From Candidatus Aegiribacteria sp. (GTDB taxonomy: Bacteria; Fermentibacterota; Fermentibacteria; Fermentibacterales; JCC-6), in contig JAGLOY010000035.1 of NCBI GenBank assembly GCA_023138735.1, positions 1-38,276 on the forward strand: a stretch of 38,276 nucleotides of DNA, in the 5' to 3' direction. Positions 4,615 to 38,276 of this stretch are shown here, in pieces. The notes beneath the pieces were generated by a model. It searched no databases and was not told the origin of the DNA. It saw only the letters and a list, made by a program, of their open reading frames with translations. Position 1 is the first letter of the stretch, and each line of letters begins with the position of its first letter. The position numbers and the translations under genes were made by a program.

Positions 4615-5688
4615 ATGGAATCCAGATACTACATCGATCTTGCGGAGCACCTTGACAGGCTTCCCGGAGGGTTCCCCCCCTCCGAGACAGGAGCGGAAAT
4701 ACGTCTGCTCGAACGGCTCTTCACACCGGAGGAGGCTGCACTGGCCATCCACCTTACACTGGAAAGAGAAGGTATCGAAGTCATAGCCGGGAAGGCAGGA
4801 TTGTCTGCGGACGATGCAGGGCTGAGGCTGGCCGGTATGGCTCACAAGGGTCTCATTTTCTCTGCTCTCGCAGAAGATGGATCAATCCGCTACCAGGCTG
4901 TTCCATTCGTGGTGGGCATATGGGAATTCCAGGTCAACCGCCTGACCAAGGGACTGGTCCGTGATGTGAACGACTACTGGAACACGATGAAGCGGACAAA
5001 GCCGGTCAGGACTATTCCGCAGATGCGGACTATACCCATTGGTGAGAGTATCGAGCCGCACCTTGAGGCGTACCCTCACGAGCATGTTGTACGATTGTTG
5101 GAAGGTCAGGACCGCTTCGCTGTGGCTCCCTGTATCTGCCGTCTGGAAGCGAAGATGGAGGGCGAGGGGTGTAACGCCCTGGAGGAAGCCTGCCTGATGT
5201 TCGGTGACTGGGCCGACTACTACGTAAGGGAGGGAAAAGGCCGCTCCATCGATCGCTCCGAGGTTCTGGAAATCCTCGCGAAGGCTGATGCTGACAACCT
5301 TGTGCTGCAACCCTCAAACTCGAGGGATGTTGTGGCGATATGCTGCTGCTGCAGCTGCTGCTGCGGAGTACTTGGAAGGCTGATACGGCATCCGAAACCG
5401 GCTAATGCAGTTTTCAGCCCGTTTGCAGTCGAGTTCGACCATGATCAATGCGTAGGTTGCGGGGTATGTGTCGAACGATGCCGAATGGATGCTTTCACTG
5501 GTACGGTAGACAAAGTGGAGTTTGACCCGATCAGGTGCATCGGCTGCGGTCTCTGCGTGACAACCTGCCCCGCGGGTGCCCTGACGCTGTTTCGCAAACC
5601 TGACACCGGAAGAATCAGGATACCGGATACCATCGACGACACCTGGCGGGAGATTGCACAGGCCCGGAAAGAAGCCAGGGATGATTGA
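4615..5688 (+). CDS. 4Fe-4S ferredoxin-type protein with CCCCSCCC motif
   Basis: The 357-residue protein is cytoplasmic by sequence (no signal peptide or membrane segment). Its first ~150 residues are helical and winged-helix-like. Its middle contains APCICRLE and a nearby EGCNALEEAC. Residues 243-250 read CCCCSCCC. The C terminus carries two standard [4Fe-4S] ferredoxin sites, CVGCGVCVERC and CIGCGLCVTTCP. I know this architecture from anaerobes' 4Fe-4S proteins of unassigned function, which have a cysteine-rich loop before a 2[4Fe-4S] ferredoxin; a redox or electron-transfer role is inference. ATG 4615 is preceded by GAGAGG. It appears monocistronic, converging on the kinase gene across 62 bases. 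No partner oxidoreductase is adjacent, although an electron-transfer pair lies 3.4 kb upstream. Confidence 0.8.
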   Translation: MESRYYIDLAEHLDRLPGGFPPSETGAEIRLLERLFTPEEAALAIHLTLEREGIEVIAGKAGLSADDAGLRLAGMAHKGLIFSALAEDGSIRYQAVPFVVGIWEFQVNRLTKGLVRDVNDYWNTMKRTKPVRTIPQMRTIPIGESIEPHLEAYPHEHVVRLLEGQDRFAVAPCICRLEAKMEGEGCNALEEACLMFGDWADYYVREGKGRSIDRSEVLEILAKADADNLVLQPSNSRDVVAICCCCSCCCGVLGRLIRHPKPANAVFSPFAVEFDHDQCVGCGVCVERCRMDAFTGTVDKVEFDPIRCIGCGLCVTTCPAGALTLFRKPDTGRIRIPDTIDDTWREIAQARKEARDD

Positions 5689-5750
5689 AATCCCGTTATC
5701 CGTCTCCAGGACATCCGTATTCTGAAAGACATCTACTCAGCCTGGATATT

Positions 5751-8474
5751 TCAACCCAGCACCACCTCCAGCATGTTCCGCAATTCATCCATGGTATAAG
5801 GTTTCTTCAGGAATCCCCTGAAGCATGGATTTGTGGTGGATTCTTCTATCGTCTCCTCAGAAAATCCACTTGAAAGTACAACATTCAGGTCTGGATAGAG
5901 GGTTGCTATGGCCCTTAATACCTCATGCCCGCTCATTTCCGGCATGGTTGTGTCAAGCAGAACGCAGGCAATGTCATTAACTCTTCCCTGCAGCAGCTTC
6001 AGGGCGCTGATTCCTCCGGAACAGGAAAGTACAGCGTAACCAAGTGTATTAAGCATGGATTCAACTGTTTCTCTTACGGATTCCTCATCATCGATTACCA
6101 GAATGAAATCGCCGGCAGACGTTTTCCGGGTTCCCGTCTGAGGGTGCATTGCCTCGGATGAACTCTCCGGTGAGCAGGGAAAGTGCAGCTTAATCATCCC
6201 TATCGAGTTTCCCTTCAGTCCGCAGGTCATGAATCCTCCATGTGATTTCAGGATACCATGAACAGCGGGTATTCTAAGATCTCTCTTCAGAGCGTCTGCG
6301 CCGGTGAAAGGATCGAACATCCGGCAGACTTCATCCTTGGAAAATCCGTCTGAGAAAGCACTGACCTCCATGAAAAGGTAATCTCCTTCCGGCAAGTCTG
6401 AATTGTGCATCGCTTGCTTCAGGTACTCGGAATTGACAGATGCTCTGCCGGTTACGATGTCAACATTCTCCCCCTCAGTTACCTTCTCTTCCAGAACGGC
6501 CAGCAGGTTCTTCAGCGCGAGACGCAGCTGGGGGGGTGATATGCTGATCAGCGGCAGCCCTTCCGGCAGGACGGTGCTGAACCTGAAATGCACTTCCGGA
6601 TCGAACGTAAGGGATTTGAGGATGAACCCGACCTCTGCGGAAAGGTCAAGCTGTTTCGCGATGAAATCGCCTCCTCCGGAAAAAGCCATCAGCTGGTTAC
6701 ATAGTGACGCTGCGCGTCTAGCACTCTCCGAGGCTTTTTCCAGATTATTCCTGGACTGGGCATCACCTGTTCGACCGATCACCAGTTCAACATTACCCAT
6801 TATCCCCACTAGAAGATTGTTAAAGTCGTGGGCTATACTACCTGCGAGGTACCCAAGGCTTTCAAGTCTTTTTGCCTTGCCGGCGAAATCTGAAAGCTCC
6901 TTTCTGTTCTGCTCTGTTCTTTTCTCTTCCGTAATATCAACTGCGAACACAACCAATCCATCGAGTGCGCTCTCTACACCTTTGAACGGAACACGGTGAC
7001 AGAGATATACATGATCCCCATCCTTCAGGGGAACCGTTTCTTCACTGTTCAGCTGGGGCTCTGAAGTTCTTCCAGAGGAGCTCTCAAAAGTTCTTCCAAG
7101 TGACCCGAAAAACTCTTCCGCCGCACCTCCAACAAGCTCCATGGGTTCTTTTCCGACAAGCCCGGCCGCATACCTGTTCAGTCTGATCACGATTCCTTTA
7201 TTATTTATGAATACTATCACCGCTGGAACGTAATCAAGGATAAGCTGGAGCTGTTCCTTCTGAGATGACAGCATATCTGAGAGATCCTCAAGCTTGCGGT
7301 TCTTGCTTCTGAGAAGTTTCGCTTCCCTGACCCGGTGCTCGGTCTCAAGTATTTCTTTTGATTCCATCAGTCTCTTATCCAGAAGATCACGGTAGAGTTT
7401 TCTCGATGTCTCCAGAGCCTGAACGGACAGATCGTATGCCTTTTCGCTGTCTCCCTGTGCGTTTCTGACCTCTGACAGCATCCGGATGGTATCCATCATC
7501 ATTTCGTCCGGTCTGTTGTTCTGCTGGTAGCTAAGACTTTTCTCAAGACATGATGCGGATTTGTGAAGTTTTCCCTCTTTTTTCCACGCTTCACCAAGGT
7601 TCAGGAGGGATGATGCCATACCGCTTCTACTTGAAATATCTTCGCGGATTGCAAGAGCTTCTTTGTGGTATTTAATTGCATTATCTGTATTGCCCATGGA
7701 TAGACAGAGGTTTCCCATGTTGTTAAGGATGTTAGCTGTTCTGGCCAGACCTCCTGCCTTTTTTCTTGCTTCCAGGGCTTCGATGTAGTACTCCAGGGCA
7801 TCATCCTGCCTGCCCATTCTTCTAAGTGTCATACCTATGCTGTTCAGTGTGTCAGGTAGACCCCACGAGTCATCGCTGCCTCGATGAATATTCAGAGCCT
7901 GGCCGAAACACTCCATGGCCCTCGGATAGATTTCCATGTGGTAGTACGCAAGGCCAAGACTGTTGAGGGAACTGGCTTCATCCTGTTCATTTCCAAGTTC
8001 CCTGCTTAGTTCAATTGCCTTCTTATGATGATCTACAGCAAGGGAAAAGTCTCCCTGATCCTTGCAGATAATGCCGAGCCAGTTCGTTGCATCGGCTACT
8101 ATCTTCAGGTCTCCGCTTTCCTCTGCAACTTTCAAGGCGTCATGCATTACTCTGTATGATTCAGACATCCTGTTAAGTCCGTGGTAGCTCGCTCCCAGAC
8201 CAAGTGTATTCTTTGCTTCTCCCGGCTTGTCCCCGTCCTGCCGGCAGCTCCGGATCGCTGCCTTGAATGCTCTGGCAGCTTTCTGAAAAACACCGGCCTT
8301 CCAGTAGGATACAGCTGCTTTGCGGAAAAGTCTGCTCTGCTCTGAAGGATGGTTCTCGGCGGCTTTGTGGAATAATTCCGCTGCCTTCTCGTAGCTGCTT
8401 TTCTGAAGAAGTCTCTCTCCCTTAATCTCCTCAGGTATTTTTCCCTCTTCATGTCCACTGCCGGACGCATCCAT
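5751..8474 (-). CDS. TPR-PAS hybrid histidine kinase with degenerate ATPase domain and C-terminal receiver
   Basis: The 907-residue protein has no membrane segment, so it is a cytoplasmic sensor. About eight tetratricopeptide repeats fill residues ~20-345 (motifs such as LNSLGLAYYHM and LNNMGNLCLSMGN), followed by a coiled coil (~350-405), a PAS domain (~405-525), a HisKA helix with an intact phosphoacceptor box around His549 (SIAHDFNNLL), an HATPase-like region (~600-770) and a receiver (~795-907) with VIDDEE, phospho-acceptor Asp841 (LLDTTMPEMSG) and LKKP. The ATPase region lacks its signatures: the N box reads NLLAVLEEK, with Val660 where the Mg-binding Asn should be. The DxGxG and GxGLGL loops are also not recognisable. 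It may therefore be a pseudokinase or phosphotransfer/phosphatase scaffold. It is divergent from the PH-like gene; no cognate regulator is adjacent. Confidence 0.85.
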   Translation of the reverse strand: MDASGSGHEEGKIPEEIKGERLLQKSSYEKAAELFHKAAENHPSEQSRLFRKAAVSYWKAGVFQKAARAFKAAIRSCRQDGDKPGEAKNTLGLGASYHGLNRMSESYRVMHDALKVAEESGDLKIVADATNWLGIICKDQGDFSLAVDHHKKAIELSRELGNEQDEASSLNSLGLAYYHMEIYPRAMECFGQALNIHRGSDDSWGLPDTLNSIGMTLRRMGRQDDALEYYIEALEARKKAGGLARTANILNNMGNLCLSMGNTDNAIKYHKEALAIREDISSRSGMASSLLNLGEAWKKEGKLHKSASCLEKSLSYQQNNRPDEMMMDTIRMLSEVRNAQGDSEKAYDLSVQALETSRKLYRDLLDKRLMESKEILETEHRVREAKLLRSKNRKLEDLSDMLSSQKEQLQLILDYVPAVIVFINNKGIVIRLNRYAAGLVGKEPMELVGGAAEEFFGSLGRTFESSSGRTSEPQLNSEETVPLKDGDHVYLCHRVPFKGVESALDGLVVFAVDITEEKRTEQNRKELSDFAGKAKRLESLGYLAGSIAHDFNNLLVGIMGNVELVIGRTGDAQSRNNLEKASESARRAASLCNQLMAFSGGGDFIAKQLDLSAEVGFILKSLTFDPEVHFRFSTVLPEGLPLISISPPQLRLALKNLLAVLEEKVTEGENVDIVTGRASVNSEYLKQAMHNSDLPEGDYLFMEVSAFSDGFSKDEVCRMFDPFTGADALKRDLRIPAVHGILKSHGGFMTCGLKGNSIGMIKLHFPCSPESSSEAMHPQTGTRKTSAGDFILVIDDEESVRETVESMLNTLGYAVLSCSGGISALKLLQGRVNDIACVLLDTTMPEMSGHEVLRAIATLYPDLNVVLSSGFSEETIEESTTNPCFRGFLKKPYTMDELRNMLEVVLG

Positions 8475-31530: not shown

Positions 31531-32673
31531 CTATTGGGCTCTGACCAGCGAAAGGGTGAACCTGGCAGTGATCGTCTCTCCCTCACCACTTAGGCTTCCG
31601 GTAACGGTACCTTTTGCCAGGGCATCGATGATATCAGTGGCCAGGTGACCGCAGGGGCCGAAGGGAAGCGATTCGAAACTGAAGTAGATGGGGTCCGGGC
31701 GTGAATCGCGCATATCGAATCCTATCGAAGGTCTTGCACTGTATTCACTCAGGAACTGACATGTAATATCCAGTAAGCCCCCGGCCCCTGTTAGATGCAG
31801 ATAACCGTTTTCATCAGGAGTAAAATACGGATTCTCCGCCAGATCCAGTTCTCCGTACTCGGCTCCTGACAGCTCTATAGCGATAACCGGCGATTCAGGT
31901 ACAAGTTGCCGCTCCAGGAAGGCTGCCATTGATTCGGAGTCCAGAATGACCGGTCCCGTGGGGTAGACTATACATTGGTAAATACCATCTTCGAATGAGC
32001 TGACTCTGCCCCCAAGAGTAAGTGTCATGTCTTCTCCAGCATCTAATTGTAACGTCACATATGGTTCGAAGGGGAAATTATCCATGCCGCCAAGTGTTAT
32101 ATCCCAGAGGTCAAGCTCAAGGCCATTGAGGGGTGGAAACCTGGAATCGGAAAGCCATCCGGTATCTGTTTCCTTGAAAACAGCATCGATAAATTCGCTG
32201 CCGCCGGCAAATCGTACTTCCATTGTAACGGTTCTTGCAGGCAGCGTATCACCCGAGCAGAGAAGGATAAGCTCCTCCCTGTCAAGTACACCCGGCTGAA
32301 CGAAGAAAGCGTTGAACTCGAAATATCCCCTCAGAAGCCAGTACCCCCTGCCGGGAGCTCCGATTAATTGAAGGCTCCCGGTTGTATCCGGCAGAAGGAG
32401 AAATCCTTCACCTTCGGTAAGTGTCTCACCCATCCATGAGCCCAGCTCCCAGAAGGGAATTTCAAGTGTATCCCCCGGGAGAGCGCCGCCAAGGAAGGTT
32501 TCCGTCACCACTGCAGTGATTGCTGAATCGTCGACAGTAATGATATTTCCGCTGCAGACCCAGGGAAGATCATGCATTGACGCTTCCAGATCCACGAACC
32601 AGGGGCCGGCAAAGGCTGCTGCGCAAAGCAGGCATGGAACGAGAATTGTAGGGATATGCAAAGATAATTTCAT
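31531..32673 (-). CDS. secreted protein of unknown family
   Basis: The 380-residue exported protein has a signal peptide (MKLSLHIPTILVPCLLCAAAFAG). The mature part is acidic and beta-rich. An N-terminal OB-like stretch reads SGNIITVDDSAITAVVTETFLGGALPGDTLEIP, and further on come LLRGYFEFNAFFVQPGV and two more sandwich-like sections. The phrase about a value being set, carried and returned (VTETFLGG, GEGFLLLPD) resembles the small domain in proteins that begin ...LADLVVVGTV..., but I do not recognise the family. I chose ATG 32673 for its GGAGAGGAG site 7 bases upstream and the signal peptide; an in-frame ATG at 32697 would add eight residues that encode the ribosome site itself. It diverges from the flavin-barrel gene across a palindrome. 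Confidence 0.7.
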   Translation of the reverse strand: MKLSLHIPTILVPCLLCAAAFAGPWFVDLEASMHDLPWVCSGNIITVDDSAITAVVTETFLGGALPGDTLEIPFWELGSWMGETLTEGEGFLLLPDTTGSLQLIGAPGRGYWLLRGYFEFNAFFVQPGVLDREELILLCSGDTLPARTVTMEVRFAGGSEFIDAVFKETDTGWLSDSRFPPLNGLELDLWDITLGGMDNFPFEPYVTLQLDAGEDMTLTLGGRVSSFEDGIYQCIVYPTGPVILDSESMAAFLERQLVPESPVIAIELSGAEYGELDLAENPYFTPDENGYLHLTGAGGLLDITCQFLSEYSARPSIGFDMRDSRPDPIYFSFESLPFGPCGHLATDIIDALAKGTVTGSLSGEGETITARFTLSLVRAQ

Positions 32674-32716
32674 GGCATCACTCCTCTCCATGTTCATGAT
32701 ACCCTACTATTATTCG

Positions 32717-32735
32717 TATATTCCATTGGAATATA
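32717..32735. promoter_or_regulatory. perfect 19-bp palindrome between divergent genes
   Basis: TATATTCCA-T-TGGAATATA is a perfect 9-1-9 inverted repeat in the 88-base gap between the secreted-protein gene (starting 32673, minus) and the FMN-barrel gene (starting 32762, plus). Its size and place fit an operator for a dimeric repressor acting on one or both genes. No regulator is encoded next to it. Confidence 0.55.
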
Positions 32736-32761
32736 GATGAACTCATGAAAGGAGAATGATC

Positions 32762-33184
32762 ATGAAGCGTGAGGAAATCCTTGAATTCGTCAGGCGCAAC
32801 ACTACTTCGTTCATGGCTACAGTAGATGAAGGTGAGCCCTGCGTTCGAGCAATGACCGCACCGCATATTGATAACGAGGGAATTACATTCTGCACCGGCA
32901 CCGGTAAGGATGTCTGCCGCCAGCTGCTTGCCAATCCCTCTGTAGAGCTCTGCTTCTGGAGCCAGGATGAAAGGCTTCAGCTTAGAATTCGGGGAAAACT
33001 GGAGAAGCTCGATGATGAAGATCTCAAGAAGCAGATAGTTGAAACAAGATTTACCTTTCTCAAACCTGTTGTGGAACAGTTCGGCTGGGATACGCTGACA
33101 CTGTTCAGAATTTCAGAAGGTCATGCAAGAACATGGTCAGCTGAGAATCCTGCCGAGAGAAACCCGGTGGTGTACGATTTCTGA
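32762..33184 (+). CDS. pyridoxamine 5'-phosphate oxidase-like FMN/F420 split-barrel protein
   Basis: The 140-residue protein has the flavin-binding split-barrel fold: EILEFVRRNTTSFMATVDEGEPCVRAMTA (strands 1-2), ITFCTGTGKDVCRQLLANPSVELCFW and LQLRIRGKLEKLDD. This subgroup binds FMN or related cofactors and includes many nitroreductase- or heme-utilisation-like proteins of unknown substrate; the specific activity cannot be read. It is full length for the family. I chose ATG 32762 because GGAG at 32751-32754 is 7 bases away; the ATG at 32756 would be one base from that site. It is a single gene, converging on the radical SAM gene with an 11-base gap. Confidence 0.85.
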   Translation: MKREEILEFVRRNTTSFMATVDEGEPCVRAMTAPHIDNEGITFCTGTGKDVCRQLLANPSVELCFWSQDERLQLRIRGKLEKLDDEDLKKQIVETRFTFLKPVVEQFGWDTLTLFRISEGHARTWSAENPAERNPVVYDF

Positions 33185-33195
33185 ACGCGGATGAG

Positions 33196-35316
33196 TCAGA
33201 ACATCCAGAAATCAATATCCTTTTCCATTGCCCGCCTGCGGATTTCTTCGATATCTGAATCCGCCAGTTCCCGTACGGCCGGCCATAACAGGATTTCGTT
33301 TCCTGCTATTTCATCAGGCAGGTGATCGATAATGTACTCGTCAGTACTATACGGTTCTGAAAGCATGCGAAATATAATTTCATGTATCATTTCACTATGC
33401 TGATGATAAGCTTCCCTGATAAGCTCAATATATGAGTACTTTCTTCCTCCAGTAATTGAGACTTCTATCCTGCCGGATTCAACAATCTCAAAGAGAAGAA
33501 CAGTATCATCAGTGCTTTGCATAATATCGAATACACCAAAGGTACACCTTCCGAAGCTGTCAATGCTCAGGGTTTCATAACCGCTGCCGGAATACAATCT
33601 GATTTCACTGGAACCCGAAGGTTGGAATACAAGATTCATCTGCTCGGCATATGGATGCTCAAGAAGATATTCAGCAGTTAATCCCGGAGGGTCATTTGCA
33701 TCTCCCCACCGCTCGATGTTCAGGTCTGCTGTCAGATAATACCTCTCCGCGTCTCCTGGCCGGGAACCGGCCTTGCTGTACATGAAGAATGGAGGGTCGG
33801 TGATTCTTCCGTTCCTGATATAGGGATCGAGACGGTTTTCGAATATTACATGTCTCCACAGGATTGTTTTCCGATGAAGAGCCTCAATAGTTGAGTACAC
33901 GACTTCCATTTCGTTCTCTGTACACTCCTCAGTCTCAAAAAGCGGTTCGTTAACCACTCTCCACAGCAGGGCTGCAAGGGACAACGAGGGATGTACGGTA
34001 TTGAGAGCATTCAATACAAGGTCACAACGGCCGGTGATGCTGCTTGGCAGGTTTCCCTGCTGAAAACCGTTAAGAATAACCCAGGCAGGATCTTCTGAAT
34101 CAAATTGATCATTCGATAGACCCGTTCCCGGCAGGCAACCGATTGACAGATCCACATAGTAACCCATGATTATTCCATCAGCAGGAGCCGGATAGAAAAT
34201 TTCCGGCTGACCATCTGAAGATATCACTGTCTGAACTTCCGTCCCGCTGCTCTGACCTGCGGCCAGGGCACCGAGACAGACAGTAAGTCCTGCAGCGGTT
34301 TTTAACGAATCCGGGACGTGCCATACTTCCCTGAAGCACTCTTTCCCGCTTTTCCTCTGAAGCCAGCAACCCGATTTACAGGCGGGATAGTATATGCATT
34401 TCCTGCACTCTCCTTCAGGTTCGTGTTCCCGAAGTTTACCGAAACCCTCTTTCCATATCTCACTCAGCGGTTTTTCGTGGATATTTCCTGCACTGAACGA
34501 CCTGTCCAGTGTTGTACAGGGAACAACTTCCCCGTCCGGAAGAATTACGCATTGTGATCTTCCCGCTCCGCAGGTAAGGGGAAAATCTCTTACAAGAGGT
34601 TCAAAACCTCCCAGGTAGCCAATCTCATCGGCCATTTCAACATTGAAGTATTGCCTCTTTCTGGCAACGAATTTTATCAGCCGCTTAAGCTCCCTTTTTG
34701 ACAGAAACAGTTCTTTGCGGTACGCTGCTCTCCCCTCTGGAACCAGCAGGTGAATTCCCCACTGATGAGCGCCGCTTGCAGCAACTTGATGGAAGGTTTC
34801 CTCAAGGTACGGATAGTTGGCTCTTGTCACTGTAGTGCCGGCGCAAACCCTGACTCCAGGCAGGGATCTGAAGAAACGAATAGCCTCTATTGCCTCTTCC
34901 CACGCACCTTTCCGTCCCCTTACTGAATCATGAATCTCTCTCGGTCCATCAAGGCTCACCGCTACAAAACCGGGGCTGTTCTCTCTGAGTGCCGTCATCT
35001 GACATTCTGAAGGCATTACAGCAGTATTCAGAGTCCAGTTCTGCTTCCTGAATCCAAGATAATCGATAACTTCAGTTAGATCATTCCTTGCCAGCGGTTC
35101 ACCACCTGTGACAAGAAACTCCTCCACTCCCATTTCGGCGACCTCATTGATGAGTTCTTTGACAGTGTGCAGAGGCATATCGGAGAAGCCATTTTCCAGG
35201 CTGACTGAAAGGCAGTGCCTGCAGCTGAGATTGCATTGCAGCGTAGCCATCCATTGTACAAGGACGGGAACTGCCGAGTAACTATTCCGTGATAAGCTTC
35301 TGCTGAAAGAACCCAT
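33196..35316 (-). CDS. radical SAM/SPASM protein fused to a large unknown C-terminal domain
   Basis: This is a 706-residue protein. Residues ~20-240 are a radical SAM barrel with C28-x3-C32-x2-C35 (CNLSCRHC) and GGEP at 71-74. Residues ~249-327 are a SPASM domain with Cys249, 256, 267, then C304-x2-C307-x5-C313-x3-C317 and Cys327, the spacing for two auxiliary [4Fe-4S] clusters. Known relatives modify ribosomal peptides, enzymes or quinone precursors. A short hydrophobic segment follows (~340-354, AAGLTVCLGALAAG), then ~350 residues with no domain I recognise (for example FYPAPADGIIMGYYVDL, SGRIEVSITGG, a helical end). AGGGGAG sets the ATG. It lies 24 bases after the HEWG gene, in one operon. 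The C-terminal half may bind the substrate or be displayed; that is speculation. Confidence 0.85.
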   Translation of the reverse strand: MGSFSRSLSRNSYSAVPVLVQWMATLQCNLSCRHCLSVSLENGFSDMPLHTVKELINEVAEMGVEEFLVTGGEPLARNDLTEVIDYLGFRKQNWTLNTAVMPSECQMTALRENSPGFVAVSLDGPREIHDSVRGRKGAWEEAIEAIRFFRSLPGVRVCAGTTVTRANYPYLEETFHQVAASGAHQWGIHLLVPEGRAAYRKELFLSKRELKRLIKFVARKRQYFNVEMADEIGYLGGFEPLVRDFPLTCGAGRSQCVILPDGEVVPCTTLDRSFSAGNIHEKPLSEIWKEGFGKLREHEPEGECRKCIYYPACKSGCWLQRKSGKECFREVWHVPDSLKTAAGLTVCLGALAAGQSSGTEVQTVISSDGQPEIFYPAPADGIIMGYYVDLSIGCLPGTGLSNDQFDSEDPAWVILNGFQQGNLPSSITGRCDLVLNALNTVHPSLSLAALLWRVVNEPLFETEECTENEMEVVYSTIEALHRKTILWRHVIFENRLDPYIRNGRITDPPFFMYSKAGSRPGDAERYYLTADLNIERWGDANDPPGLTAEYLLEHPYAEQMNLVFQPSGSSEIRLYSGSGYETLSIDSFGRCTFGVFDIMQSTDDTVLLFEIVESGRIEVSITGGRKYSYIELIREAYHQHSEMIHEIIFRMLSEPYSTDEYIIDHLPDEIAGNEILLWPAVRELADSDIEEIRRRAMEKDIDFWMF

Positions 35317-35340
35317 ACTGCACTCCCCTCAATGCAAACC

Positions 35341-36264
35341 TTATACACTCCCCAAGGCCAGAAACAGCCGGGAGTACTCCACAGAATAACCCTGGTCAGT
35401 CTGAAGGTCGAGCGAGCTGATGGATTCAACCTGTTCATCAGTGAGGGGGAACAGGACTACCGCCTCTCCGTATTGAACACATCTGGTCAGAATACTTGGT
35501 TTCCACGTTTTCCAGAGGGCTTCGATCTCTTCGACCAGGAATTCATCACCTCCCCAGTCTTGCAGAACCTCCAGTATCCCTTCATCTGAAACGGCTAATT
35601 CAATCCTGATTCTGTTACCCGGTGCGAGCACCAGATCGGCCTTAAGTTCACCATTCTCTTCATGAAACACAAGAGAGTGTTGCTGGTAAATCTCGGAGGG
35701 ATCCTGCTCATCAAACAAGTTTGATGCAGAGCATTCGTAATAAATAAAGCGATCAGTGTAAGATACAGCCCCGTATGTAACAGTCAGTGCAGGGACTTCC
35801 CGCCAGAACGGCATCGCCCACAGGAAACCCTCCTCGATGCTGTAATCTGCAATACCCCGTCTGTCATAGGGTCTGTCGCTGCTACTGGATACATCATCTG
35901 TGAAAGTTAAATCCTTCCAGACAGCTGTGTAATTGTCACCTTCCTGAAAGACGGGAATAGACTCATCATCGATGGACTCAGATACCGGCAATGGAATTAG
36001 AAGGGAAAAATAGCCGTTTTGTACTTCTACCGTAAGAGTGCCGGTGAATTCGGGGCCATGGAACCATATCACTGGCGCGTCAACGGCCATCGAGTAATAA
36101 GGCTGCAGCATTCCGTTCTCTTCCAGATAACCCCGTTCAGCCCCACTGACTGTAGGGATAACCTCATCTATCAGTACTACACCCCATTCATGCACGAATA
36201 CAGTTTGATCTGATGTCTCGGTCACGGGAGAACAGACCAGCGTTAACAGAATCATATATACCAT
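35341..36264 (-). CDS. exported protein with VHEWG motif, partner of the radical SAM gene
   Basis: The 307-residue protein starts with a short hydrophobic signal (MVYMILLTLVCSPVTET), then QTVFVHEWGVVLID. A VHEWG start is shared with a group of exported beta-rich proteins of planctomycetes and related bacteria (my recollection; function not known). The rest is strand-rich, acidic and Trp/Tyr-rich (APVIWFHGPEFTGTLTVEV, YGAVSYTDRFIYYECSA), with a helical region near 255-280. It contains very few cysteines. AAGGAGGTT eight bases before the ATG is a strong ribosome site. It is the promoter-proximal gene of a two-gene operon with the radical SAM protein, and so could be a substrate, carrier or partner of it. 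No classic leader peptide or protease/transporter gene is present. Confidence 0.65.
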   Translation of the reverse strand: MVYMILLTLVCSPVTETSDQTVFVHEWGVVLIDEVIPTVSGAERGYLEENGMLQPYYSMAVDAPVIWFHGPEFTGTLTVEVQNGYFSLLIPLPVSESIDDESIPVFQEGDNYTAVWKDLTFTDDVSSSSDRPYDRRGIADYSIEEGFLWAMPFWREVPALTVTYGAVSYTDRFIYYECSASNLFDEQDPSEIYQQHSLVFHEENGELKADLVLAPGNRIRIELAVSDEGILEVLQDWGGDEFLVEEIEALWKTWKPSILTRCVQYGEAVVLFPLTDEQVESISSLDLQTDQGYSVEYSRLFLALGSV

Positions 36265-36281
36265 TCAGTGAACCTCCTTCA

Positions 36282-36302
36282 ATCTGTATCAATTATACAG
36301 AT
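36282..36302 (-). promoter_or_regulatory. inverted repeat overlapping a -10 element of the HEWG/radical SAM operon
   Basis: ATCTGTAT-N5-ATACAGAT is a perfect 8-bp inverted repeat. On the minus strand it contains TATAAT (within CTGTATAATTG), which lies about 25 bases before the ATG of the HEWG gene, a good place for a -10. No convincing -35 is seen at 16-18 bases. A repressor site over the -10 is the simplest reading. Confidence 0.45.
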
Positions 36303-36334
36303 ATATGAAGATAAGATTCCATCCTTCTGATAAC

Positions 36335-36658
36335 CTATACCTGACAATCACATTTTATCTCTCCGCTGATGATTTTCTTCCAGTCCCCGATCACATCATG
36401 TGTCCAGCAGTCATCCGCGCCTGCTGCCTCCCGCATAACGAGGGCGAGAATGTACGAAAGCTCCTTAACGGTAGCCCCGGTTTCAAGCGCCCCCTTGAAG
36501 TGTTTTAGCACACAGGGTTTCGATCGCGCCCTGATTGACAGAGCAAAGCAAATGAATTGATAAGTCTTCTCATCAATACTTCTTTTCTCCATGTAGAGGT
36601 CATCCATGCTTTCGAGGAGTTCCGTGAACTCCGGAAAAAATTCTCTGAGCATTCTCAT
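36335..36658 (-). CDS. AhpD/carboxymuconolactone decarboxylase-like protein
   Basis: The 107-residue all-helical protein has the family core SIRARSKPCVLKHFKGALETGATVKEL then ILALVMREAAG. AhpD-type enzymes use a C-x2-C-x3-H peroxidatic site. Here the first Cys is a Ser (SKPCVLKH), so only one redox Cys and the His remain; it could be a non-redox member of the family. The end adds a C-x-C (IKCDCQV), which could bind a metal. GGGAGAG precedes the ATG. It diverges from the arsR-like gene, and its promoter abuts the putative ArsR operator, so it may belong to that regulon. Confidence 0.75.
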   Translation of the reverse strand: MRMLREFFPEFTELLESMDDLYMEKRSIDEKTYQFICFALSIRARSKPCVLKHFKGALETGATVKELSYILALVMREAAGADDCWTHDVIGDWKKIISGEIKCDCQV

Positions 36659-36691
36659 CGTACTCTCCCTTCGTGTTAGAGCGAATCCTGA

Positions 36692-36721
36692 ATTTTAGAT
36701 AACTCTTTCAGCTTGACTCAA
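36692..36721 (-). promoter_or_regulatory. promoter of the AhpD-like gene
   Basis: On the minus strand TTGAGT (36716-36721) and TAAAAT (36692-36697) are separated by 18 bases. Transcription would start near 36685, 27 bases before the ATG. Its -35 overlaps the -35 of the opposing arsR promoter. Confidence 0.5.
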
Positions 36722-36741
36722 TATAGTATTTGTAATATTGT
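36713..36741 (+). promoter_or_regulatory. promoter of the arsR-like gene
   Basis: TTGACT (36713-36718) and TATTGT (36736-36741) are 17 bases apart. The operator-like inverted repeat at 36726-36749 covers the second half of the spacer and the whole -10. Confidence 0.5.
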
Positions 36742-36749
36742 ACAAATAC
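36726..36749. promoter_or_regulatory. probable ArsR-type operator
   Basis: GTATTTGTA-N6-TACAAATAC is a perfect 9-bp inverted repeat, 22 bases before the arsR-like ATG. It covers the -10 of that gene and ends four bases from the -35 of the divergent AhpD-like gene. This matches how ArsR/SmtB repressors bind imperfect 12-2-12-like AT-rich dyads, so autoregulation and joint control of the divergent gene are likely. Confidence 0.7.
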
Positions 36750-36771
36750 GCAAAGAAAGAAAGAGATCATC

Positions 36772-37110
36772 ATGACAGTGGATATGGCACGGTTCGAAAA
36801 AAGGGCTGAAATCATCAAAGCAATGGGTAATGCTGCCCGTCTTGTGATAGTCGAGGATCTGCAAAATAATGAAAAGACAGTTGGAGCGCTGACAGAGCTT
36901 GTCGATCTCGATATTTCCACTGTATCCCGGCATCTTCTGATCCTTCGTCATGCGGGAATTGTGTCATGTAGAAAGAACGGCAACAGGGTGCTGTACCGGC
37001 TGCGAACTCCGTGCGTTCTGAACTTCTTCGACTGTGTCGAGAGGATATTGAACAGCGACGATGACTTGAAGGATACGTGTTCTGATGATTCATGCACCAA
37101 TTGCATTTAG
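36772..37110 (+). CDS. ArsR/SmtB-family metal-responsive repressor
   Basis: The 112-residue winged-helix protein reads AEIIKAMGNAARLVIVEDLQ (helix 1-2), VGALTELVDLDISTVSRHLLILRHAGIV (recognition helix) and CRKNGNRVLYRL (wing). There is no CxC in the recognition helix as in ArsR of plasmids. Cysteines are at RTPCVLNFFDC and in the tail CSDDSCTNC, a Cys-rich C-terminal site that could sense a thiophilic metal or metalloid. A GAAAGAGA site precedes the ATG. It is followed 39 bases later by the permease gene, forming a regulator-effector operon. Which metal it senses is not known. Confidence 0.88.
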   Translation: MTVDMARFEKRAEIIKAMGNAARLVIVEDLQNNEKTVGALTELVDLDISTVSRHLLILRHAGIVSCRKNGNRVLYRLRTPCVLNFFDCVERILNSDDDLKDTCSDDSCTNCI

Positions 37111-37149
37111 AAATTTCATTTCAGAATATCGAGTTAAAGAGGAGTATTG

Positions 37150-38276
37150 ATGGACTGGAAGAAGGATAGAAATCCACTTGGTTACATGCTGGGTTTCTTC
37201 CTGATCGCCTATTTTCTGCCTGTAGGATGGAATCGCTTTGACAATGCCGTGTTCGAAGCGCTGTTCCTTCTTAAGGAGTATGCAAGAGAACATGTTCTTA
37301 CCTGTCTTCTTCCAGCATTTTTCATTGCAGGCGCGATATCAGTTTTCCTGAGTCAGGCTTCCGTAATGAAGTACCTTGGCGCACAGGCGAAGAAAGTTAT
37401 CGCTTACGGAGTTGCTTCGGTGTCCGGCAGCATACTTGCTGTCTGCTCCTGTACTGTGCTTCCCCTGTTCGCCGGTATTTACAGGATGGGGGCCGGGATC
37501 GGGCCTGCCACCGCTTTCCTCTATTCCGGCCCTGCCATCAATGTTCTCGCGATAATTCTTACAGCGAGAATTCTGGGAATTCAGCTGGGCGTGGCCCGGG
37601 CAGTGGGAGCTGTCGTGTTCAGCATAGTGATCGGTCTCCTGATGCACATGATCTACGGAAAAAAAGAGAATGAAAGAACACTTGCCGCACAAACATCGAT
37701 AAATAATGATGATACTTCCCGCCCCCTGTGGCAGACAACTCTGTATTTCGCGAGCATGGTCGGCATCCTCATCTTCGCCAACTGGGGAAAACCCGACATG
37801 AGTTCCGGTCTCTGGAATCTGATCTACTCGTGGAAATGGATCATTACGGGAGGCTTCTCTGTCCTTCTCGGGCTGATGCTGACAGCCTGGTTCGATGTGA
37901 AACTATGGAAACTGCTGATCGTAGGAGTCGCCATAACCGCTTCAGCAGTAACCCTTCCGGATCATCCTGAAATTGCCTTTGCAGCCGGTCTTATCGGATT
38001 CTCAGTTGTTCTGACAACCGGCAACCGCGAAACGAAATCCTGGTTTGACTCAACATTCGGGTTTGCGAAGCAGATATTTCCTCTGCTCTTTGCAGGAGTG
38101 CTGATCGCGGGGGCTCTCCTCGGACGACCGGGCAATGAGGGCCTGATCCCTTCCGAATGGGTCAGTTCTGCGGTTGGGGGGAATTCCATAATCGCGAATC
38201 TCTTTGCCTCGATCGCGGGGGCTTTCATGTATTTCGCGACTCTGACGGAAGTACCAATCCTTCAGGGGCTCCTTGG
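37150..38276 (+). CDS. permease of the DUF318/ArsP-like family (3' truncated)
   Basis: The frame from ATG 37150 (with a GAGGAG site) is open through the window's last base, 375 codons. About nine or ten hydrophobic helices are visible. The conserved core is SGSILAVCSCTVLPLFAGIY followed by GPATAFLYSGPAINV, with a charged loop (KKENERTLAAQ) between the two halves. The family includes ArsP, which exports trivalent organoarsenicals, and SO_0444-type metal efflux permeases; the CSC pair is the metal-binding feature. Its place after an ArsR-type regulator supports metal or metalloid efflux. The C terminus and the exact substrate are outside what can be seen. Confidence 0.85.
   Translation, partial: MDWKKDRNPLGYMLGFFLIAYFLPVGWNRFDNAVFEALFLLKEYAREHVLTCLLPAFFIAGAISVFLSQASVMKYLGAQAKKVIAYGVASVSGSILAVCSCTVLPLFAGIYRMGAGIGPATAFLYSGPAINVLAIILTARILGIQLGVARAVGAVVFSIVIGLLMHMIYGKKENERTLAAQTSINNDDTSRPLWQTTLYFASMVGILIFANWGKPDMSSGLWNLIYSWKWIITGGFSVLLGLMLTAWFDVKLWKLLIVGVAITASAVTLPDHPEIAFAAGLIGFSVVLTTGNRETKSWFDSTFGFAKQIFPLLFAGVLIAGALLGRPGNEGLIPSEWVSSAVGGNSIIANLFASIAGAFMYFATLTEVPILQGLL

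Follow-up and report, generated by a model that had tools for sequence, protein, structure and literature searches.

A radical SAM/SPASM enzyme fused to a candidate exported substrate domain in Fermentibacterota and Planctomycetota

How can a single polypeptide chain accommodate both a cytoplasmic iron-sulfur (Fe-S) enzyme and an exported domain? The question is raised by a gene in a 38,276-nucleotide stretch of Candidatus Aegiribacteria sp. (assembly GCA_023138735.1, contig JAGLOY010000035.1, which is contig C122 of the 3.2-Mb genome G000 in our numbering), hereafter called the window. An open reading frame (ORF) call at 33196-35316 on the minus strand yields a 706-amino-acid protein that starts as a radical S-adenosylmethionine (SAM)/SPASM enzyme, passes through a short hydrophobic segment at about residues 338-354 and continues as a large domain to residue 706. 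An earlier inspection of the bare letters, hereafter the sequence-only reading, had recognized this architecture and called an Fe-S enzyme joined to an exported-looking domain topologically odd, which is a fair remark. The usual target of a radical SAM/SPASM maturase is a short peptide or a protein encoded apart from it. Here, one self-contained gene product may instead unite the maturase, an internal signal for export and the exported domain as the enzyme's own substrate, a proposal that in our judgment stands about evenly between right and wrong.

The enzymatic part of the protein is readily recognized. Its extent, residues 1-331 (34324..35316, minus strand), follows from matches to PF04055, PF13186 and TIGR04133 and from its cysteine positions. 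PF04055 covers residues 26-165 (expect value, E, 2e-15; 57.7 bits against a cut-off of 29.5) and includes a CxxxCxxC motif at Cys 28, 32 and 35, which identifies a member of the radical SAM superfamily. The SPASM family PF13186 covers residues 249-307 (E 1e-12; 48.2 bits against a cut-off of 21.5), and the eight cysteines of a SPASM domain lie at positions 249, 256, 267, 304, 307, 313, 317 and 327, such that the earlier description of a complete enzyme with three radical SAM and eight SPASM cysteines holds. The best NCBIfam match of this core is TIGR04133, 'rSAM_w_lipo' (residues 20-317, 172.3 bits, E 1e-50), with a score that, at 174.5 bits in the genome search, stays well under the family cut-off of 425 and leaves the core outside that family. 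The mycofactocin enzyme MftC (TIGR03962) is the second-best profile (E 5e-40; 137.6 bits against a cut-off of 265), followed by the heme-synthesis profiles NirJ2 and AhbD of the NirJ/AhbD type (E 1e-38 to 1e-37, far below cut-off), while the anaerobic sulfatase-maturating enzyme (anSME) profile TIGR03942 reaches 51.7 bits against a cut-off of 349.45; the core belongs to none of these families. Solved structures related to the core are SkfB, 5wgg, which we take to be CteB, anSME and PqqE.

The C-terminal domain, residues 361-706 (33199..34236, minus strand), was delimited by homologue comparison and AlphaFold2 modelling and lies outside known families, in agreement with the sequence-only reading, which could not assign it. 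Pfam has nothing beyond residue 307 of the protein, and for residues 332-706 neither Pfam, NCBIfam nor the PDB offers a significant match. Searched alone, the domain stays without a family at E<=1 in Pfam and at E<=10 in NCBIfam, and PDB sequences searched with its profile likewise give nothing at E<=10. Several weak matches were set aside, namely UCHL5 ubiquitin hydrolase at residues 602-695 in a single-sequence PDB search (chance-level E of 0.34-0.8), PF25201 and PF05475 in one domain member each (E 0.15 and 0.19) and DUF4630 in the planctomycete member L173 (E 0.084). A structural search with Foldseek likewise gave no usable PDB fold, with 165 matches at E<=10, none at E<=0.001 and a best hit of E 0.15 and template-modelling score 0.16. 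The AlphaFold2 model of the domain, built from a 16-sequence alignment, has a mean predicted local distance difference test score (pLDDT) of 68 and a predicted template-modelling score of 0.68, and it places helices before a beta-rich part (model residues 230-297) and further helices almost to the end. A SKAGxRxG block at residues 514-521 (33754..33777, minus strand) stands out by alignment conservation, with S, K, A, G, R and G invariant in the 16-row alignment and less so in a wider one. It corresponds to model residues 183-190, inside a low-confidence stretch (163-226), perhaps because the radical SAM part is absent from the model, although this is a guess.

What, then, is conserved at this locus? 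Judged from sequence comparison, the conserved unit is the fusion of the radical SAM core and the C-terminal domain, rather than a pairing of the radical SAM gene with the neighbouring gene for a HEWG-motif protein. Of 385 genomes scanned for the domain, 18 carry it, and every one of these belongs to the 42 genomes of the window's own order of Fermentibacterota; a probable tail fragment in a further genome, G018, is assigned by inference only because the match sits 15 bases from a contig end (the same locus holds another radical SAM ORF of 198 amino acids, distinct from the fusion). When named genomes were scanned with the domain alignment, 15 loci emerged (13 from Fermentibacterota, two from Phycisphaerae), and the close homologues among named records come from Candidatus Aegiribacteria, Fermentibacteria and Sabulitectum. 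Within that planctomycete class the domain is present in five of 298 genomes, and within the phylum Planctomycetota in five of 392, with the seed genome G100 counted in both. In nearly every locus with a readable 5' side, across both phyla, the domain is joined to the same radical SAM/SPASM core. The exceptions are an unfused homologue in G696, a half-domain in G033 (L104, G033:C275, 4386-5159, minus strand), where just the C-terminal half, tail included, follows unrelated sequence in a 7-kb contig and may be a truncated gene or an assembly chimera, and a second copy in the planctomycete G241 (L157, 5880-6923, beside the copy L156, 1089-3422), in which both the radical SAM part and the signal segment are out of frame with the domain close to a contig end. 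In the loci compared, the fusion has no constant neighbour that could serve as short precursor, exporter or partner.

The phylogeny of the core adds a further dimension to this distribution. In a midpoint-rooted tree of 20 core sequences, the two named Phycisphaerae stand beside the main Aegiribacteria/Sabulitectum clade (support 91/86, moderate) and inside a group of 13 otherwise Fermentibacterota rows (100/98), while other Planctomycetota fall outside. Because the Phycisphaerae cores nest in this manner, transfer of the fusion between Fermentibacterota and Planctomycetota, in one direction or the other, is likely. Contig ends account for the partial pieces in G002, G008, G013, G018 and G029. 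Contig breaks inside the radical SAM gene (G002:C66/C67, G013:C69/C82, G018:C123, G029:C26/C36, G036:C312, G008:C272, G025:C17) seem more frequent than its length suggests and may reflect strain variation or DNA common to co-occurring strains.

The unfused homologue in the planctomycete G696 is informative about the topology of the domain. This gene (L174, minus strand, 5372 to 6658 or 6706; profile E 2e-36) encodes the domain without a radical SAM part, and its N-terminus is a canonical signal peptide (TVRVILAATVLGLLCGGAAAAAEP; RTVRVILAATVLGLLCGGAAAAAEP) that stands where fused members have the segment after the SPASM domain. It ends in ASLWLF, the same type of tail (SLWLF) as in the fused proteins, and the tail follows a HEAT-like stretch (PF13646, E 0.0023, under cut-off), which suggests that the tail is a separable motif.

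In the fused proteins, the corresponding segment, WHVPDSLKTAAGLTVCLGALAAG in the window, follows the last SPASM cysteine and spans residues 332-360 (34237..34323, minus strand), with a conserved Cys-Leu-Gly; it was delimited by hydrophobicity and conservation and resembles an export signal. In each of the 19 full-length members tested, the protein's most hydrophobic 12-mer falls in this segment, with means between -0.03 and 0.07 on an approximate Hessa-type scale. These 19 members are 16 sequences, the ones longer than 690 amino acids among 21 collected, plus three additions; L158 was added separately. Such values are typical of the N-terminal stretches of 43 HEWG proteins, which have a median of -0.05 and quartiles of -0.17 and 0.10. 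By eye, the segment ends in an AxA-like manner in L127, L129, L156 and L172, and in L173 it carries a textbook lipobox, LSAC (LSAC/TGDEK); three lipoprotein models weakly overlap this segment of L173 (E 0.17-1.7). Several planctomycete members, again by eye, continue after the segment with Pro/Thr/Ala-rich linkers. Predicted export of the C-terminal domain is fairly well supported.

The opposite end of the domain is equally distinctive. The protein closes with Asp-Phe-Trp-Met-Phe at residues 702-706 (33199..33213, minus strand), directly abutting the stop codon, and this tail was defined by column information, ORF-end counts and a DNA pattern. Among eight diverse members, the last five alignment columns hold 3.0 to 4.3 bits, while ten-residue blocks over the preceding approximately 120 residues average 0.2 to 3.0 bits, mostly 2.0 to 2.8. 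All 26 complete family C-termini examined end in polar-x-aromatic-M/L-F/L (W-[ML]-F in 24, W-M-L in L158 and Y-L-F in L172). Among 501 distinct ORFs called mechanically from the fetched loci (at least 100 amino acids, with a stop), 25 end in [WY][ML][FL], and all 25 are family members, with none among the 476 others; L174 is not among the 25, as a longer overlapping ORF displaced the unfused domain, and its ending, read separately, brings the family count to 26. Shorter contig-end fragments of G008 and G013 also bear the tail. At the DNA level, the pattern for D-x-D-x-W-M-F-stop has a single occurrence in each of 16 genomes out of 99; in 15 of them it closes the fusion gene, and in G018 it sits at the contig end.

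The neighbouring gene at 35341-36264 (minus strand) is an ORF call of 307 amino acids with a short signal-like N-terminus followed by VFVHEWG, which lies 5' of the 706-amino-acid ORF on the same strand across a gap of 24 bp. Both genes are real, as open-frame homologues in many genomes show. The HEWG protein has no Pfam or NCBIfam match at E<=10, and its AlphaFold2 model has a pLDDT of 35. A single-sequence query finds HEWG matches in 41 of 99 genomes, which are all but one of the 42 in the order, and in none of the 57 outside it. The matches form a large paralogous family, with up to nine match pieces per genome and tandem genes (for example at G032:C73, G024:C73 and G028:C206). Upstream of the fusion, HEWG is found in nine of the 23 loci with a visible 5' flank (15 in Fermentibacterota and eight in Planctomycetota; L125 and L158 show less than 700 bases, and L175, which shows 136, was dropped). 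It is directly upstream in the window, G002, G006, G010, G013, G014 and G016 and is set off from the fusion by one or two ORFs in G015 and G003; the other 14 loci have no HEWG upstream, namely G001, G007, G011, G017, G029, G036 and all eight planctomycete loci. The gene found next to HEWG in G006 directly adjoins the radical SAM gene in G011 and G017, which suggests loss of HEWG in these two genomes, and a single-sequence search, with its limited reach, gives no HEWG match at E<=10 in two named fusion-bearing Phycisphaerae genomes. These flank counts rule out HEWG as an obligate partner. The sequence-only reading had named failure of the two genes to co-occur as a possible refutation of its idea, and the outcome is divided: co-occurrence fails at 14 of the 23 flanks, but all ten HEWG genes of at least 67% identity lie in fusion genomes (G018 by its tail fragment only), and the pair persists despite differing outer flanks, so a lineage-specific link is possible. 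We place HEWG outside the core of the system, as no more than a lineage-specific accessory.

How might such a chimeric protein work? The simplest reading is a fusion of a maturase with its exported target domain, in which the former N-terminal signal of the domain has become internal. The N-terminal enzyme would fold and load its Fe-S clusters in the cytoplasm and would then modify the C-terminal domain before it leaves the cytoplasm, with the aromatic tail (D-x-W-M-F-stop) or its vicinity as the most likely site. Subsequently, the internal signal, of Sec or lipoprotein type, would move the domain across the membrane, where it would be released by signal peptidase or kept as a membrane-tethered outer domain. 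The domain as substrate is suggested by the near-constant fusion, the signal-bearing unfused L174, the signal-like segment, the conserved tail, the maturase-like profiles and the lack of a constant partner. The fusion, the signal-like segment, the signal-bearing L174 and the conservation of the tail are read directly from sequence, and from these patterns we infer actual export, the role of the domain as substrate, the tail as site, the chemistry and any cleavage. The more specific version, a one-protein maturation-export system in which the enzyme modifies its own aromatic tail and then exports the domain via a possibly cleavable Sec or lipoprotein signal, at an enzyme-to-product ratio of 1:1, is tentative. 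Several observations weigh against the fused domain as substrate. Heme-synthesis radical SAM/SPASM profiles, whose enzymes act on small molecules, score nearly as well as those of peptide maturases. The hydrophobicity of the segment is no more than moderate (about 0.0, compared with -0.17 for the signal of L174 on the same approximate scale), and its sequence (LKTAAGxxVCLG) is conserved beyond usual signal peptides; for both reasons the segment may instead form a structural helix. The unfused form is represented by a single gene of a single assembly, and its radical SAM partner was not found in G696, where the best cores are 24-37% identical to the Phycisphaerae core (a best core at 31% plus a 37% fragment at a contig end), compared with 55% core identity between the fused members of G100 and G407. 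The tail is also not the only conserved part of the domain, as residues 441-450 (3.2 bits) and 511-520 (3.0 bits) show, and it may be a docking, sorting or protease-recognition element.

Part of this evidence fits a different, somewhat doubtful scenario, in which the enzyme acts on some other peptide or small molecule and the domain is a cytoplasmic recognition, oligomerization or redox-partner module, with the segment as a plain helix and the tail docked in the enzyme. The weak hydrophobicity and unusual conservation of the segment and the closeness of the heme-synthesis enzymes would suit this arrangement, as would the low model confidence of the SKAG block without the radical SAM part if it packs on that part; it sits poorly with an unfused L174 that has a signal peptide and retains the tail, with the lipobox in L173 and with the linkers in planctomycete members. 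If the domain is exported, it need not be a substrate, and a membrane-anchored bifunctional protein could couple outer binding or sensing to an unrelated cytoplasmic radical reaction. This would account for signs of export without demonstrated modification and for the lack, by eye, of an obvious core-peptide-like stretch in the domain, but several of the closest SPASM profiles describe enzymes that mature ribosomal peptides or proteins, and an extreme C-terminal tail is hard to account for in an outer sensor, save as a sorting or protease signal, which makes this option unlikely. The sequence-only reading had left open whether the exported partner or the fused domain is the target. HEWG as the substrate, modified before export by a protein whose fused domain serves as scaffold or recruiter, would explain its immediate upstream position in seven loci and its place one or two ORFs away in two, with differing outer flanks, as well as the fusion, or in G018 its probable tail fragment, in all ten close-HEWG genomes. 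Yet the 14 loci without an upstream HEWG include same-genus G011 and G017 and every planctomycete locus, the two named Phycisphaerae genomes give no match at E<=10 to the single-sequence query, and motif-bearing HEWG paralogues occur in genomes without a detected fusion, so that this choice appears quite unlikely, and the balance of the earlier alternative tips towards the fused domain.

The surroundings of the gene offer few additional candidates. The sequence-only reading had described HEWG as the sole operon partner; its co-directional position stands, but an AhpD/CMD-like gene with a Cys-x-x-x-His stretch (36335-36658, minus strand; PF02627, E 1e-5) is also on the same strand, 70 bp upstream of HEWG. 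Among the flank rows compared, only those of G003 and G016 show it next to HEWG; its presence varies among relatives, and it is probably an incidental neighbour. On the other side of the radical SAM gene lies a convergent flavoprotein gene, across a gap of 11 bp. As the earlier inspection had stated, no short leader-type peptide is visible, with no leader-core-like precursor found by eye among ORFs of 20-59 amino acids on both strands of 32600-37200, and no sulfatase gene is present among the ORFs read around the radical SAM gene. Farther away, a 388-amino-acid exported-looking protein (31531-32697, minus strand) has no Pfam or NCBIfam match at E<=1, and the long ORFs beside it resemble, by eye, AddAB-type helicase-nuclease genes. 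In the named Phycisphaerae, a similar exported protein of approximately 600 amino acids, also recognized by eye, is encoded on the opposite strand downstream of the fusion (L125, 3109-5040; L126, 9631-11460), which may reflect synteny of close relatives or a local partner.

Known systems provide partial precedents for the proposed self-modification. The short name of the best-matching profile, 'rSAM_w_lipo', presumably points to a lipoprotein, i.e., exported, partner; the fusion core scores far below that family's cut-off, and its exported partner would be fused rather than encoded by a separate gene. Sulfatases are often exported. The anSMEs are radical SAM/SPASM enzymes that convert a Ser or Cys of a protein to formylglycine (PMC8326336). 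They thereby set a working precedent for whole-protein modification, although their similarity to the fusion core is low and anSME is not fused to its sulfatase. A second parallel is MftC, whose modified Tyr and Val are the C-terminal residues of MftA. MftC acts on a tyrosine by decarboxylating it and joining it to the valine beside it (PMC8326336). This sets an example of chemistry at an aromatic residue and the one next to it, to which the aromatic C-terminus of the fusion would be analogous, but the MftC precursor is short and separate, whereas the W-M-F tail here sits on a large domain. No such fusion was found in the literature searched, which covers the field in part. If the favoured reading holds, this two-phylum fusion would represent a ready-made enzyme-substrate pair, in which the hunt for a substrate becomes unnecessary and the tail offers a specific, testable site of modification.

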